From: Nocardioidaceae bacterium
GTDB taxonomy: Bacteria; Actinomycetota; Actinomycetes; Propionibacteriales; Nocardioidaceae
Reading direction: 5' to 3'
NCBI GenBank assembly: GCA_017744365.1
Contig: JAGIBL010000007.1
Location: forward strand, 1 to 64,000
Length of the DNA: 64,000 bases
The notes under the pieces were generated by a model. That model saw only the letters and a list, made by a program, of their open reading frames with translations, was not told the origin of the DNA and did no database searches. Each line of letters starts with the position of its first letter. Position 1 is the first letter of the stretch. The translations under genes were made by a program, and so were the position numbers. Positions 58,700 to 64,000 of the stretch are shown piece after piece.

Positions 58700-58869
58700 C
58701 GCACAGAGCGTGACGAAGGGGCCGGAAAGCACGCGCTGCTCTCCGGCCCCTTGCCCCGTCGGACGGGCGGTGGGCTTGCCCGGAACCCCCAGACCGCAAA
58801 CCCCCGGCGGCCTTTCCGGTACCACGGCCCGTCGATGTCCAAGAGCGCCGACCCGACGGCCTGATACAT
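58624..58869 (-). CDS. Candidate 81-aa protein coupled to the CHAT gene
   Basis: The ATG at 58869 overlaps the CHAT stop as TGATG, a coupling arrangement. The first 40 codons ([20 protein letters not shown] and on) have GC-rich third positions and fill a gap otherwise unexplained (58753-58868). The frame then runs through the hairpin at 58716-58752 and 76 bases into the dehydrogenase gene, which argues against it. No family recognised. Confidence 0.3.
58716..58752. terminator. Hairpin terminator between convergent units
   Basis: Perfect 11-bp arms, AAGGGGCCGGA and TCCGGCCCCTT, with a 15-base loop begin 16 bases after the dehydrogenase stop. It could serve both strands. Confidence 0.7.
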
Positions 58870-61307
58870 CACCAGCCGGCTCCGAAGCAGAGCAGCGGGA
58901 TCACGTCGTCGCTCCCGGCGACCACCTGCGCGAGCGCGTCCGCCGGGGCGACACCCTCGGCGACCAGCCCGTGCCAGGCCGCGAAGGTCTCGCAGGCGAG
59001 GTCGTCGGCCAGCAGCGCGGGGGAGGAGATCACCGCCCGCGCGCCGGCGTGCAGCCAGGCCCGGCTCATCCCGACCGACTCCTCGCCGTGCAGCACCGAG
59101 GCCCGGCCCAGGTCGCAGGCGGAGAGGACGACCACCTCGGGGGTCCGCGGCAGCAGGTCGACGTCGTGGCCGAACCAGGGCCCGTCGACCAGCTCGACCG
59201 CCGCGAACAGCGGGTGGTCGCCCGGGTGCAGGCCGTGGCCGGCGACGTGGAAAAGGTCGACGCGCGAGGCCAGCCAGCCGACCCGGTTGGAGTCGGCCTC
59301 CTCGCCGGTCAGCACCTGCGCGGCGGGCCAGCGGCCGGCGGCGCGGCTGACCTCGTCGTCGGCACGCTGCAGCCGCGGTCCGGCGACGAAGCCGGCGACG
59401 CGCGGCGGTGCCAGCGGAGCGGCCGCCTGCTCCATCCACCGCGTCGTCGAGGTGGGGATCGTCAGCGGGCGCCCGATCAGGCCGGGCAGGCAGGTCCACG
59501 GGGTGCCGGCCAGCATCGCCGACGGGGTCAGCACCAGCCGGCGGTAGCCGATCACGCCGAGCAGCGGCCGTACCAGCAGGTCGCCCAGGGCGGAGAGGTC
59601 GGTGCGCAGCGAGCCGCGCACCGCGGTGCCCAGGTCCCCGTCACGGTGCTGGGCGGCGAAGTCCAGGTCCGCCGCGATCCGGTCGATCAGCGCGCGGGCA
59701 GCCTCCACCGGGCACAGCGGCACCACCGCCGTCTGCTCGGCCGTCACGCAGAGGGCGTGGATGCGGCCGTCCAGGACGATGTGCGCGACCAGGCCCGCGT
59801 CGTCGGCCTCGAGGCGCGCCTGCAGCTCCTCCAGCCCGATCGGCTCGCCGACGGTTCCCGAGGCGCTGAACCAGGTGCGCGAGCGGATCCGGTCGCGCAG
59901 CTCGCGGGTGCGGGCACGGTCCTTCGGGTCGCTCATCCGCAGCCGGGTGAGGTCGGCGGCGAGCGCGGGGTCCGGGGGCGGCCGGAGCGCGGTCACCCGG
60001 GAGGCCAGCGCCCGGGCGCGCTCGGACCACTCGAAGACCACGGCCGGGGAGCCGTCCTCGAGCGCCGCTCGCAGCCCGAGCCGGGCCAGGTGCTGGCCGT
60101 GGCCGACCGAGGACGACTGCAGGTCGAGGCTGCCGAAGGAGGACTGCCAGGCGTGCAGCTCGCCGAGGCCGCGGCGGGCGCTGCTGCGGGTCTGGGCCAG
60201 CTGGCCGCGCGCGGAGGCGAGCTCGGCGCGCACCTCGAGCCGGAGCAGCCGGGTGGTGATCGGGGAGTCCCGGCCGACGCGCACCCGGCCTAGCCGGGCG
60301 GCCGCGTCGGTGAGGTCGCCGCGGCGGATCACCAGCCGGGTCGCGTGCAGCGCGACCCGGTCCGCCTCGGGGCGGTAGCCGGCCTTGCGCAGCTGCTCGA
60401 CGAGCTCGTCGGCGCGGCGCAGCACCGCGGGCGAGGAGGCGCCGCCGGTGATCTCGGCGACGACGGCCACCGCCCGCGCCCGGACCGCCCAGGTGGTGCT
60501 CCCGTTCGCCTCGAAGCGCCGGGCGGCCTGCTGGGCGACGGTCCGGCTCCGGGCCGGGTCCTCGGAGAGGAGGGTGCGGGCCAGGATCAGCTCGCACTCG
60601 GCCTGGAAGCGGTGCAGCTTCTCGCTGCCGTACGCCTCGGCCGCCTCCTCGAGCGCCTCGGCGGCCTCGCGGGGCCGCCCGGAGGCGAGCAGCACCTCGG
60701 CGCGGTCCTGCTGGCCGATCGCGCGGCTGACCGGCGACAGCTCGGCGAGGGTCGGTGCGGCCTCGTCCATGCCCTTCATGGCGGCGACCAGGTCGTTGCG
60801 CAGCAGGTGCGTGTAGCCGAGGTTGAAGATCGCCTTGGCCCGGTCGACGGCCTCGTCGGCGCGCTCGAGGTAGTCGGCGGCCTCGGTGAAGTCCGCGGCG
60901 GCCGAGGCCGGGTCCTGCAGGTCGAGGAAGAGGTAGCCGCGGTTGAGCAGGGCACGACCGCGGTGCAGCGGCTCGCCGTGCAGCACGTCCAGCGCCATCG
61001 TGAGGCACTTCATCGCGGCGTCGTTCTCGGCGTTGCGCATGTAGAGGAGCCCGAGCTGCGAGTGCGCCAGGCCGGCGGTCAGGCCGGGCAGCCCGGGACG
61101 CATCAGCACCTCCTCGCACAGCGCGATCGCGCCCGCCGGGTCGCCGGTCTCGGCCATCCCGTAGGCGGCGGTGATGTCGAGGCGGCTGAGCAGGTCCGCG
61201 TCCTCGGTCAGCGTGCGGGCGCGCTCGATCAGGGCCAGCGCCTCGGCGTACCTGTTCGCGTTCCCCGCTGCGACGGCCTGCTGGTGGAGGGACTCAGCGT
61301 CGTCCAC
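58869..61307 (-). CDS. TPR-CHAT caspase-like protease
   Basis: The 812-aa protein has residues 1-~300 as repeated helical pairs of TPR type (ANRYAEALALIERARTL, AHSQLGLLYMRNAENDAAMK, ALLNRGYLFLDLQDPASAAA), a helical linker to ~500, and a C-terminal CHAT domain. The caspase-like dyad is present: His691 in FHVAGHGLHPGDHPL and Cys731 in VVVLSACDLGRA, followed by GARAVISSPA. CHAT proteases cut protein partners after activation through the TPR part (family knowledge). It is the last large gene of a minus-strand operon with a sigma factor, a 162-aa protein and an S8 protease, 29 bases after the protease gene. GTG 61307 has a gagg site. Confidence 0.92.
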   Translation of the reverse strand: MDDAESLHQQAVAAGNANRYAEALALIERARTLTEDADLLSRLDITAAYGMAETGDPAGAIALCEEVLMRPGLPGLTAGLAHSQLGLLYMRNAENDAAMKCLTMALDVLHGEPLHRGRALLNRGYLFLDLQDPASAAADFTEAADYLERADEAVDRAKAIFNLGYTHLLRNDLVAAMKGMDEAAPTLAELSPVSRAIGQQDRAEVLLASGRPREAAEALEEAAEAYGSEKLHRFQAECELILARTLLSEDPARSRTVAQQAARRFEANGSTTWAVRARAVAVVAEITGGASSPAVLRRADELVEQLRKAGYRPEADRVALHATRLVIRRGDLTDAAARLGRVRVGRDSPITTRLLRLEVRAELASARGQLAQTRSSARRGLGELHAWQSSFGSLDLQSSSVGHGQHLARLGLRAALEDGSPAVVFEWSERARALASRVTALRPPPDPALAADLTRLRMSDPKDRARTRELRDRIRSRTWFSASGTVGEPIGLEELQARLEADDAGLVAHIVLDGRIHALCVTAEQTAVVPLCPVEAARALIDRIAADLDFAAQHRDGDLGTAVRGSLRTDLSALGDLLVRPLLGVIGYRRLVLTPSAMLAGTPWTCLPGLIGRPLTIPTSTTRWMEQAAAPLAPPRVAGFVAGPRLQRADDEVSRAAGRWPAAQVLTGEEADSNRVGWLASRVDLFHVAGHGLHPGDHPLFAAVELVDGPWFGHDVDLLPRTPEVVVLSACDLGRASVLHGEESVGMSRAWLHAGARAVISSPALLADDLACETFAAWHGLVAEGVAPADALAQVVAGSDDVIPLLCFGAGW

Positions 61308-61336: not shown

Positions 61337-63130
61337 TCACGGGGCGATGTCGGTCCCGGCCTCGACCGCCGCCCAGGCGCGCTTGACGGCGGCCTTGCGC
61401 CGGTCGTTGGCGGGGTTGATCCGCTTCAGCGCCGCGCTCAGCCAGCCCGCGAAGAGGGGCGCCGCGAAGGACGTCCCGCTCCACACCGCGAAGCCGTTGC
61501 GGAAGTCGTCGGGCTCCGGGGACTGCCGGAGCCTGCCGTCCAGCACGGTCTGCGCCATCGGCTGGTAGCCGCCCTGGAACGGCGGCACCGTGCTCATCAC
61601 CGAGGCTCCCGGCGCGTGCGCGCGCACCCACGGCCCGGCGTTGCTGAACATCGCGTCGGAGCCGTTGGGGTTCAGGGCTCCCACCGAGACGATCGGCACC
61701 ACGTCCGCGTTCGGCTTGACCGGTCCCTGGCCGTTGGACCAGGGGGCGAGCGCCGCGGGGTACGACGGCCGGGTGGTGGCGTCGTTGCCCGCCGAGCAGA
61801 CCACCGTCACCCCGCACTCGCCGAGCAGCCGCAGCGGCTCGTGGATCTGGGAGTCGAAGGCGACGTCCTCGGGAGACTCGTGGTAGTAGCCCAGCGAGAG
61901 GGTGAGCACGTCGATGGCCTGGCCACCGCGCTCGCCGTCGCGGTGCCGGCGAGCTAGCTCGGCGATGTCGGTGAGCGCGTTGATGAGGTCGCCCTCGACG
62001 ATCGGGCCCTCGGGCGGCGTGATCCGCCACGAGATCAGGTCCGCGTCCGGGTTCGCCTGACGCACCAGCCCGGCGATGAACGTGCCGTGGCCGGCGTACT
62101 GGTCGATGCCGCCGTCCGCGGGACCCACCTGGTCCGGGTTCGTCTCCGGGTCGGTGCTCGGGTCGGTGTAGCCGATCGGCTTGCCGTCGAGCTTCACGTT
62201 CTTGCGCACGTACGGGTCGAGCCACGGGTGCCGGCCGCAGCCGGAGTCGAGGATCGCCACCACCGGACGGCGTCCGCGGTACTCGCTGTTGGGCGTGCGG
62301 GCCGGCTCCGGCCCGATGTAGGCGACCGGCTGGCGTCCCCCGGTGCCCGGCAGGCCGTAGGCGGCCACGGCCGGGCTGAACGGGTTGCCGGTGGCGTAGG
62401 GGTTTCCGGTGGCGTAGGGGTTGCCGGTCGCGTAGGGGTTGCCGGTCGCGTAGGGATTGCCGGTCGCGTACGGGTTGCCCGTCGCGTACGGGTTCCCGGT
62501 GGCGTAGGGATTGCCCGTCGCATAGGGGTTGCCCGTGGCGTAGGGGTTGCCCGTGGCGTAGGGGTTGCCGGTGGCGTAGGGGTTGCCCGTCGCGAACGGG
62601 TTCCCGGTGACGTCGCCCATCGCGATGAGGTGGTCGAGCCCGACCTCGGTGAGCCGGTGGCGTCGCCGGCCGGCCCGGACCGCCTGCAGGAAGAGCCAGG
62701 CGTCCGGCTTCTTCGGGGTGCTCTCGTCCGCGACGCCGAGCTCGAGTCGGGCCACGCCCCTGGCCGCGCGGTTCGCCCGGGTCCGGCTCTCGGCGTCGGA
62801 GGTGTCCAGGGTCCAGCCGAGGCTCTCGGCGACCGCGGTCAGCTCGGCCAGCAGCTCCGGGGTGACCGCGTTGCGGGCGACCAGCACCCGGGTGCCGGCG
62901 TACGCCGTGGGCAGCGGCTGCTTGCCGTCCGCCCGCAGGGCCGTGACGGTGTTCAGGATGCGCGGGGAGACCCGGTCGAAGGCCGCCAGCCGCTCCTGCT
63001 CGCGCTTCTCGCGCGCGGCGATCTGCTCGTTCAGCTCGCGCTGCAGCCGGCGCTTCTCGGCAGCGGTCAGCGGCTTGGGCGCGTCCTCGGGACTCGTCGC
63101 AGGCTTGTGGGAGGGCTTCTTGGCGGGCAT
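61337..63130 (-). CDS. Cytoplasmic S8 (subtilisin-like) protease with NPYATG hexapeptide repeats
   Basis: The 597-aa protein has no signal peptide; residues 1-60 are highly charged and helical (AAEKRRLQRELNEQIAAREK). Residues ~60-170 form a mixed domain with KKPDAWLFLQAVRAG. Residues 177-248 are twelve tandem hexapeptides, one NPFATG and eleven NPYATG, ending in NPFSP. The catalytic S8 domain follows with Asp295 (VAILDSGCG), His348 (YAGHGTFIAG), the oxyanion Asn (CSAGNDATTR) and Ser554 (WSGTSFAAPL). All catalytic residues are present. The missing export signal and adjacent CHAT protease point to an intracellular signalling or death role. Confidence 0.92.
   Translation of the reverse strand: MPAKKPSHKPATSPEDAPKPLTAAEKRRLQRELNEQIAAREKREQERLAAFDRVSPRILNTVTALRADGKQPLPTAYAGTRVLVARNAVTPELLAELTAVAESLGWTLDTSDAESRTRANRAARGVARLELGVADESTPKKPDAWLFLQAVRAGRRRHRLTEVGLDHLIAMGDVTGNPFATGNPYATGNPYATGNPYATGNPYATGNPYATGNPYATGNPYATGNPYATGNPYATGNPYATGNPYATGNPFSPAVAAYGLPGTGGRQPVAYIGPEPARTPNSEYRGRRPVVAILDSGCGRHPWLDPYVRKNVKLDGKPIGYTDPSTDPETNPDQVGPADGGIDQYAGHGTFIAGLVRQANPDADLISWRITPPEGPIVEGDLINALTDIAELARRHRDGERGGQAIDVLTLSLGYYHESPEDVAFDSQIHEPLRLLGECGVTVVCSAGNDATTRPSYPAALAPWSNGQGPVKPNADVVPIVSVGALNPNGSDAMFSNAGPWVRAHAPGASVMSTVPPFQGGYQPMAQTVLDGRLRQSPEPDDFRNGFAVWSGTSFAAPLFAGWLSAALKRINPANDRRKAAVKRAWAAVEAGTDIAP
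62387..62602 (-). repeat. Tandem 18-bp repeat (12 units) encoding NP(Y/F)ATG
   Basis: Twelve 18-bp units lie inside the protease gene. Third-codon positions vary between units (for example gcgtagg, gcgtacg and gcatagg on the plus strand) while the peptide is constant, so the protein repeat is under selection and not merely a recent DNA duplication. Confidence 0.95.
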
Positions 63131-63139
63131 GGGCGAACC

Positions 63140-63628
63140 TCAGATCCAGAACGGCGGAGTGACCAGCGGCCGGGAGCCGTCCGCCGGGTGGAACGTCAGC
63201 CGGCAGGCCCCGGTCGGGGTCGCCGGGAACTCGAAGCGTCCCGAGTCCGCCACCTGCGCTTCCTCGGCGGTGCTGCGCCGCCCCGTCGAGGTGAGGTGCA
63301 CGGTCAGCGGCTGCGCCGGGGTGACCCAGCCGTCCAGCCGTGCCTGCCGCTGGCCGCGCGAGATCCGGACCTGCACCCGGAAGCCCGGGCCGAGGTACTC
63401 CAGCGACCAGGTGCCGACCTCGTCGGGCGCGCGCAGCATCGACACCGAGCGCACCCCGGCGAGCTCCTTGTCGAACTCGACGAGGGTCAGCAGCTCGGCG
63501 TCCAGGGTCTCGGCCTCGAGACGCGCGAGCACGCCCTCGGCCAGGTCGGCCGGGGGCGGGTCGATCTGCTCGTACAGCGCCTCGATCTGGTCGAGGAGGG
63601 CGTCGTCCGACGGTGTCTGCTCGCTCAC
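63140..63628 (-). CDS. 162-aa protein of the sigma/S8/CHAT operon, unrecognised
   Basis: The N-terminal part is helical and acidic (DDALLDQIEALYEQIDPPPA, then DLAEGVLARLEAETLDAELL). From about residue 65 the rest looks all-beta (TWSLEYLGPGFRVQVRISRG, FEFPATPTGACRLTFHP) and ends FWI. No membrane segment or zinc motif is present. GTG 63628 has a ggagg site and overlaps the sigma stop by 4 bases. By position it may be an anti-sigma factor, an adaptor or a substrate of the neighbouring proteases; none is shown by sequence. Confidence 0.8.
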   Translation of the reverse strand: MSEQTPSDDALLDQIEALYEQIDPPPADLAEGVLARLEAETLDAELLTLVEFDKELAGVRSVSMLRAPDEVGTWSLEYLGPGFRVQVRISRGQRQARLDGWVTPAQPLTVHLTSTGRRSTAEEAQVADSGRFEFPATPTGACRLTFHPADGSRPLVTPPFWI

Positions 63629-64000
63629 GACGCACCTCCTTCCAGCGCCAGCTCCTGGCGCAGCTTCTCCAGGCACCGGCCCCGGGTCGGGCCGATGCTG
63701 CCGACCGGCATCCCCAGCGTCCGGGACACCTCGGCGTAGTCGGGTCGCGGGCCGGCCGCGACGATCCGCAGCAGCGCCCGGCAGCGCTCGTTGAGTCGTT
63801 CCAGGCAGCGCAGCAGCAGCTCGCGGTCGTCGGCCAGCACCACGTCGTTCTCGGGCCCGTCGGCGGGCGGCAGCGCGGGGGAGAGCACCTCGTCGTCGGT
63901 GGCGGTCTCGCGACGGGCCTTCTTGCCCACGCGCCAGGCCTCGCGCCGGGCGGTGGTGCACAGCCAGCCGGCCACCGACTGCGGCGAGTCGATCGACGCG
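63625..64000 (-). CDS. RNA polymerase sigma-70 family (ECF-like) factor, 5' truncated by window edge
   Basis: About 124 C-terminal residues are visible. The first part (SVAGWLCTTARREAWRVGKK) matches the end of sigma region 2. Region 4 has LNERCRALLRIVA, YAEVSRTLGMPVGSIGPTRG and CLEKLRQEL, the -35-recognition helix-turn-helix. The frame is open to the window end, so the true start is outside. First visible gene of the operon 162-aa protein, S8, CHAT. Confidence 0.9.
   Translation of the reverse strand, partial: ASIDSPQSVAGWLCTTARREAWRVGKKARRETATDDEVLSPALPPADGPENDVVLADDRELLLRCLERLNERCRALLRIVAAGPRPDYAEVSRTLGMPVGSIGPTRGRCLEKLRQELALEGGAS

Follow-up and report, generated by a model that had tools for sequence, protein, structure and literature searches.

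A tandem hexapeptide array in an actinobacterial subtilase as a candidate recognition cassette coupling it to a co-encoded TPR-CHAT protease

Twelve tandem hexapeptides in a peptidase S8 of a Nocardioidaceae bacterium probably form a multi-copy recognition cassette, a reading to which we assign a probability of roughly two in three; the units would act both as ligands of a TPR groove and as substrate or pseudosubstrate of the S8 domain, and would thereby couple two proteases. The gene lies in the window, by which we mean the whole 64,000-nucleotide stretch that was analyzed. In the proposed mechanism, the unit, P-PHI-x-x-(G/S/P)-(N/H), would be a ligand of the concave TPR groove of a co-encoded, caspase-like TPR-CHAT protease; the same unit would be presented to its own S8 domain, residue 4 lying at P4 and the N/H at P1; the array would physically couple the two enzymes; and its lineage-specific sequence would be a private code common to the array, the TPR groove, and the S4 pocket. 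The conclusions on contact and function are all computational. The components are of known kinds, namely TPR-peptide recognition, TPR-CHAT proteases, and subtilases, and no published description of the cassette was found in the open-license literature, which is not proof of absence.

The S8 gene (61337..63130, reverse strand) encodes 597 aa. Its catalytic domain (PF00082, residues 286-569, E=6e-19) carries an intact triad, D295/H348/S554, together with N449; these residues, the Asp-His-Ser triad and oxyanion Asn by which peptidase S8 is defined, were present in 82 of the 82 aligned homologues. No signal peptide was apparent by eye at the N-terminus of the window protein (MPAKKPSHKPAT); it is probably an intracellular subtilase, with the units placed inside a 597-aa protein and not in a secreted small propeptide. 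The array (62387..62602, reverse strand) comprises one NPFATG and then eleven NPYATG at residues 177-248, between an N-terminal part of ~170 residues and the S8 domain, and NPFSP follows directly after unit 12. An earlier note on this DNA had described 12 hexapeptides at this place, directly before the S8 domain, and was exact. The register selected was x-(P-PHI-x-x-G-N)n. TRF placed it well ahead of every other tandem array in the window (period 18, 12.9 copies), with a score of 342 vs. 66 for the second-best array. Ten distinct 18-mers were counted across the 12 units, and the Phe of unit 1 was the sole amino-acid difference.

The N-terminal domain (62621..62983, reverse strand; about residues 50-170) is predicted to follow a beta-alpha-beta-beta-alpha(-beta) order, in agreement with the I9 prodomain, in low-confidence AF2 models of two full-length S8 proteins, that of the window and that of locus L002 (both poor, pLDDT 46 and 52). 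No Pfam match was obtained for this domain, even at E=10, and none to I9. The array was without structure in both of these low-confidence models, and among homologues indels and spacers break the period and leave the six-residue core intact (L190, L161, L195, L235); both observations speak against the regular solenoid suggested earlier. A left-handed beta-helix hexapeptide solenoid ([LIV]-G-x4, unbroken coils) was likewise rejected for units of the form P-PHI-x-x-G-N, in which spacers and indels are tolerated. The comparison with defense systems gave a weak IetS match to the S8 domain and none beyond it.

About 190 homologous S8 genes from several actinobacterial families were read. The array is not a chance occurrence, because 184 of the 190 homologues had a tandem array at the equivalent place, flanked by the same two domains. 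Matches were obtained in 15/24 Nocardioides genomes at E<=1e-3 (some were weak or unrelated repeats, and 13 were strong by profile), in 93/342 of the family sample and 89/392 of the order sample, in 81/150 for the family of G282 and 9/200 for that of G453, and in 8/396 of a phylum-wide sample. Copy number ranged from 2 to 13 and varied between relatives with an identical unit, as expected from the length variability proposed in the earlier note. The units themselves were diverse, with 90 distinct ones among 105 genes; a unit was shared by 38% of pairs at 80-85% catalytic-domain identity and by almost none below 80%. In the hexamers, position 2 was Pro in 57/59 units, position 1 was mostly Asn/His, position 3 mostly aromatic or aliphatic, position 4 mostly His/Thr, and position 6 mostly Gly/Ser/Pro. 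Periods of 7-11 were possible in distant families, with variable spacers around a constant core (PYWKVP, PYITGP, PYVAH, or PVHDPN), and the core of the spaced arrays in a closer family was PWEVPH.

Two copies were irregular at the level of the gene or its assembly. In the N. pocheonensis copy, a 72-N run (L001:6428-6499) fell exactly within the repeat array, and such arrays seem to break short-read assemblies. In locus L177 (G731), the S8 gene was frameshifted and the array had decayed to HPIEMS/HPIEIS/HPVEMS; either the constraint was naturally relaxed or the assembly is in error. The sigma factor, small protein, and CHAT of this locus still matched well.

The S8 gene belongs to a conserved cassette of an ECF-type sigma factor, a small protein, S8, and TPR-CHAT, which was complete in 95/105 loci (several of the 10 incomplete ones stop at contig ends) and was ordered as sigma-small-S8-CHAT or S8-sigma-small-CHAT. 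The window cassette lies on the reverse strand throughout. Its TPR-CHAT gene (58869..61307, 812 aa) encodes a TPR domain at ~residues 1-246 (60570..61307), a putative receptor groove with a polar ladder at position 6 of TPR repeats 3-6 (Gln/Asn/Asn/Asp, nearly invariant), and a CHAT domain at residues 571-795 (PF12770, E=1e-15). The His-Cys dyad that defines CHAT proteases (clan CD) was conserved where aligned (His 78/78, Cys 78/78). The small protein (63143..63634, ~160 aa) is conserved, and its C-terminal half is weakly carboxypeptidase-regulatory-like, below the Pfam cut-off; the sigma factor gene (63625..64000) has its 5' part beyond the window. Two loci (L116, L257) had no adjacent CHAT, with a TPR-CHAT present elsewhere in each genome.

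Homologues devoid of the repeat, named beforehand in the earlier note as evidence against its claim, were found in 4 of the 190. One of them (L174, G728:C26) was an orphan S8 paralogue outside the cassette, in which a Pro/Ala-rich linker and a single PYHSS replaced the array; none of the three partners stood alongside, and a second TPR-CHAT was present on another contig of the genome. Loss of the array there goes with the absence of cassette neighbors, which we counted as support for coupling. The remaining three (L220, L221, L233) were cassettes with CHAT yet without a tandem array, which counts against it.

Covariation was determined at 82 loci with all components, where each unit position was compared with each alignment column and overall distance was controlled. 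By partial Mantel test, unit position 3 pointed first to column 204 (r=0.477; next column, 0.27), which was picked out by a scan of about 1500 columns and corresponds to Gly198 of the window TPR-CHAT (60714..60716, reverse strand). The residue at this column is size-complementary to unit position 3 (Tyr in the window): Tyr units were paired with Gly (16/16); Phe units with Cys (19), Val (6), Ser (2), Ala (2), or Pro (1); Leu units with Val (11/12) or Ile (1); Val units with Ile (3), Met (2), or single others; His units with Cys (7) or Gly (1); and Met units with Ala (2). Of the two arrays without an adjacent CHAT, one was readable at column 204 and obeyed the Tyr-Gly rule: its unlinked CHAT, in G040, carries Gly at this column, and the unit has Tyr. 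The choice of column 204 from so many columns counts against the reading, as does its place at TPR helix position 3, beside, not on, the canonical groove positions. Further high-scoring columns also fell within the TPR part. Helix-A positions 2, 5, 9, 12, and 13 as a set gave 0.130 vs. 0.073±0.014 in simulations, a value reached in 0/500; mean groove covariation per unit position was weak compared with other TPR columns, and the groove signal became clear only when the highest value across unit positions was set against simulations. Whole-protein Mantel tests of unit distance against CHAT, S8, the sigma factor, and the small protein gave no clear partner, and a clear partner signal was seen only in the per-column tests. 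Because the change is coordinated between two proteins and complementary in size, contact is the best explanation, and array residue 3 most likely contacts TPR residue 198. The units would, we infer, bind the TPR groove directly.

Unit position 4 covaried with the S8 domain's own S4 pocket, which upholds the earlier suggestion of a substrate-mimic element. The pocket residues L382, L413, and I429 (61844..61987, reverse strand), which we take from motif spacing to be the equivalents of subtilisin 107, 126, and 135, gave 0.271 vs. 0.007±0.036 simulated (0/500), and this was the case for unit position 4 only. The top S8 columns for this position were the equivalents of subtilisin 108, 107, 103, 135, and 126, again mapped by motif, and Asn/Asp at unit position 4 was paired with Trp at the 107 equivalent in 14/15. 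The S4 signal was uneven between two batches of loci, and no significant covariation was detected between the S1 wall or pocket and the P1 candidate. Since the S4-pocket columns covary with unit position 4, unit residue 4 is likely P4 and the following N/H likely P1. The register set by P4 at position 4 coincides with the register given by the array edges, which across homologues fit x-(P-PHI-x-x-G-N)n-y.

If the units are ligands of one protease and substrate or pseudosubstrate of the other, occupancy of the TPR groove would be expected to switch CHAT; by analogy with Csx29, CHAT would then act on the small protein or the sigma factor, and the cassette's sigma factor may be the output. Within this explanation, docking or autoinhibitory capture has about even odds, an excised peptide ligand is somewhat less favored, and any other arrangement has a small share. 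Subtilisins normally disfavor Pro at P1', which speaks against excision at the Asn-Pro bond; in the docking or pseudosubstrate branch, in which CHAT would capture the array, such a Pro would resist cleavage.

The strongest competitor, which we regard as tentative, is the excision branch of this explanation taken as a claim by itself: S8 would cut its units out as free hexapeptides, perhaps modified or cyclic, and these would be a private intra- or intercellular signal to which TPR-CHAT responds, comparable to RRNPPA signaling. Put another way, and no less tentatively, the array might be a polyprotein-like store from which S8 would self-excise 2-13 identical, lineage-specific hexapeptides, switching on a TPR-caspase that controls the sigma factor. 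The Asn-Pro bond is a poor subtilisin site, neither signal peptide nor exporter nor importer was seen in the cassette, and arrays with spacers would yield ragged peptides. On the other side, the edge register is the very register predicted from P4 at position 4, spacer-less units could hardly all hold TPR domains simultaneously, and bacterial TPR receptors take peptides of 5-10 residues, for which Phr precursors can be multi-copy (PMC11343458).

It is unlikely that CHAT cleaves the array, with the docked protease cutting S8 there and freeing its catalytic domain. The TPR covariation points to binding of the units by CHAT, and the TPR groove of OGT binds HCF-1, which the enzyme cleaves (PMC8586251); however, no unit residue is constant enough to be the P1 of a clan CD protease, and against 500 simulations unit covariation was absent from the CHAT catalytic half (p=0.97), as well as from the small protein and the sigma factor. 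The earlier note had proposed such a cut, and what survives of its proposal is the involvement of the neighboring CHAT, as TPR-groove docking suggested by the covariation, and not a demonstrated cleavage.

We consider it improbable that the covariation reflects shared ancestry or an alignment artefact instead of contact. Linked genes do have a common tree, and distant families obey the rule only in part: in the other families, which were read afterwards, Tyr units were found with Ala/Ser/Gly in 34/37 and Phe units with Cys in 2/4, and Val/Ile/Met units were mostly found with Ser, not with a larger partner residue, so that in these families the size rule covers the large residue but not the aliphatic ones. 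However, the pattern is size-complementary, the sigma factor, the small protein, and the CHAT catalytic half lack such a signal, and column 204 remained first when the tree was taken into account. It led in co-substitution on the tree (22 shared branches vs. 11.6 expected) and in independent contrasts (r=0.71 for hydropathy, Bonferroni 8e-10; -0.53 for volume), its signal was greater than the maximum over all columns in 300 tree simulations (0.395), and it ranked first separately in both batches of loci (1/1528 and 1/1481).

The repeat is under selection at the protein level, as the earlier note had claimed. Adjacent units in 176 arrays differed by 1630 synonymous vs. 40 nonsynonymous codon differences, opposite in direction to the neutral expectation of an N/S of about 3; the 40 is a lower bound, as array detection favors self-similar runs, and a laxer delimitation that included degenerate edge units gave 267 synonymous vs. 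85 nonsynonymous minimum changes. Among the serine codons of adjacent units, 41 TCN/AGY switches were counted. In two proteins with 97% identity, APFTRG was kept in all except the edge copy and the synonymous codons were scrambled. Because synonymous codons are scrambled while the peptide is constant, the array copies are, judging by their codons, old and held identical by purifying selection, not recently duplicated. A flexible linker with minisatellite turnover, in which slippage keeps the copies alike and sequence is irrelevant beyond flexibility or solubility, is already disfavored and is the least probable of the alternatives. In its favor, copy number does differ between relatives with the same unit, 18-bp units are slippage-prone, and AF2 shows no array structure. 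Against it, the many synonymous differences, serine switches included, come with almost none in amino acid, changes in the unit are matched by changes at a residue of a second protein, and the cores survive indels and spacers.

Several known systems resemble the cassette in part. In RRNPPA systems (Rap-Phr, AimR-AimP), a TPR domain recognizes a peptide of 5-10 aa from precursors that can be multi-copy, and in Rap a conserved Asn anchors the peptide (PMC11343458). The likeness would be that of a short peptide bound by a TPR domain; the TPR domain is confirmed here, and its groove positions covary with the unit. In contrast to RRNPPA, the ligand here would stand in up to 13 tandem copies within an intracellular subtilase, a caspase-like protease carries the TPR domain, and the secreted, re-imported small propeptide with a signal peptide has no counterpart in the window S8. 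In Craspase/CASP, the TPR-CHAT Csx29 occurs with Csx30 and CASP-sigma; the TPR domain of Csx29 transmits activation, and the substrate of Csx29 inhibits an ECF sigma factor (PMC10028731). Here, too, TPR-CHAT shares its locus with the gene of an ECF-type sigma factor and that of one more protein (95/105 loci), whereas no CRISPR effector or RNA trigger was seen; where Craspase has its activator, the cassette has a subtilase with a peptide array. No Cas7-11-like gene was present among the neighbors read by eye at 52-64 kb of the window (other loci were checked for the four cassette genes only), and the window TPR-CHAT had no significant sequence match to Csx29 in the PDB.

The asparagine ladder of the OGT TPR superhelix binds the peptide backbone, and its HCF-1 repeat substrate is cleaved (PMC8586251); the polar ladder at TPR position 6 is comparable to it, as it is to the anchoring Asn of Rap, but OGT is a glycosyltransferase, whereas two proteases and lineage-specific units are found here. 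The domain order, the predicted strand/helix order of the N-domain, and an element between the domains that is apparently read by the enzyme's own S4 pocket are shared with subtilisin and its I9 prodomain. Unlike that pair, the window protein has no Pfam I9 match, a multi-copy array after the N-domain, and no apparent secretion signal. A multi-core RiPP precursor, with core peptides that are excised and modified, comes with a modification enzyme or transporter; the four conserved cassette genes encode neither.

If the coupling of the two proteases is true, it would represent a two-protease signaling module in common soil actinobacteria, in which a diversifying peptide array and the TPR pocket that fits it would set the specificity. 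Its many naturally occurring pairs of unit and pocket would be a ready-made specificity code for studying pair coevolution, and the arrangement suggests a CRISPR-independent way of switching a free-standing bacterial TPR-CHAT protease. If excision is true, a private peptide code would be built into a protease.

A few observations were made beside the array. Repeat matches L004-L007 were set aside by translation as unrelated low-complexity stretches of Streptomyces proteins, and L023, L035, and L036 as KKAAP(V/A) tandem repeats, unrelated to the array, of a Nocardioides protein; a DksA/TraR-like C-terminal part, named by eye, follows these repeats. In several Nocardioides (L079, L082, L087, L088), a second sigma-factor/small-protein pair was located ~1.5-3 kb upstream of the cassette. 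Two S8+CHAT modules adjoin in L131 and L132 (G294, G549), with the units GPFTSG and HPMYDG or HPLYDG.
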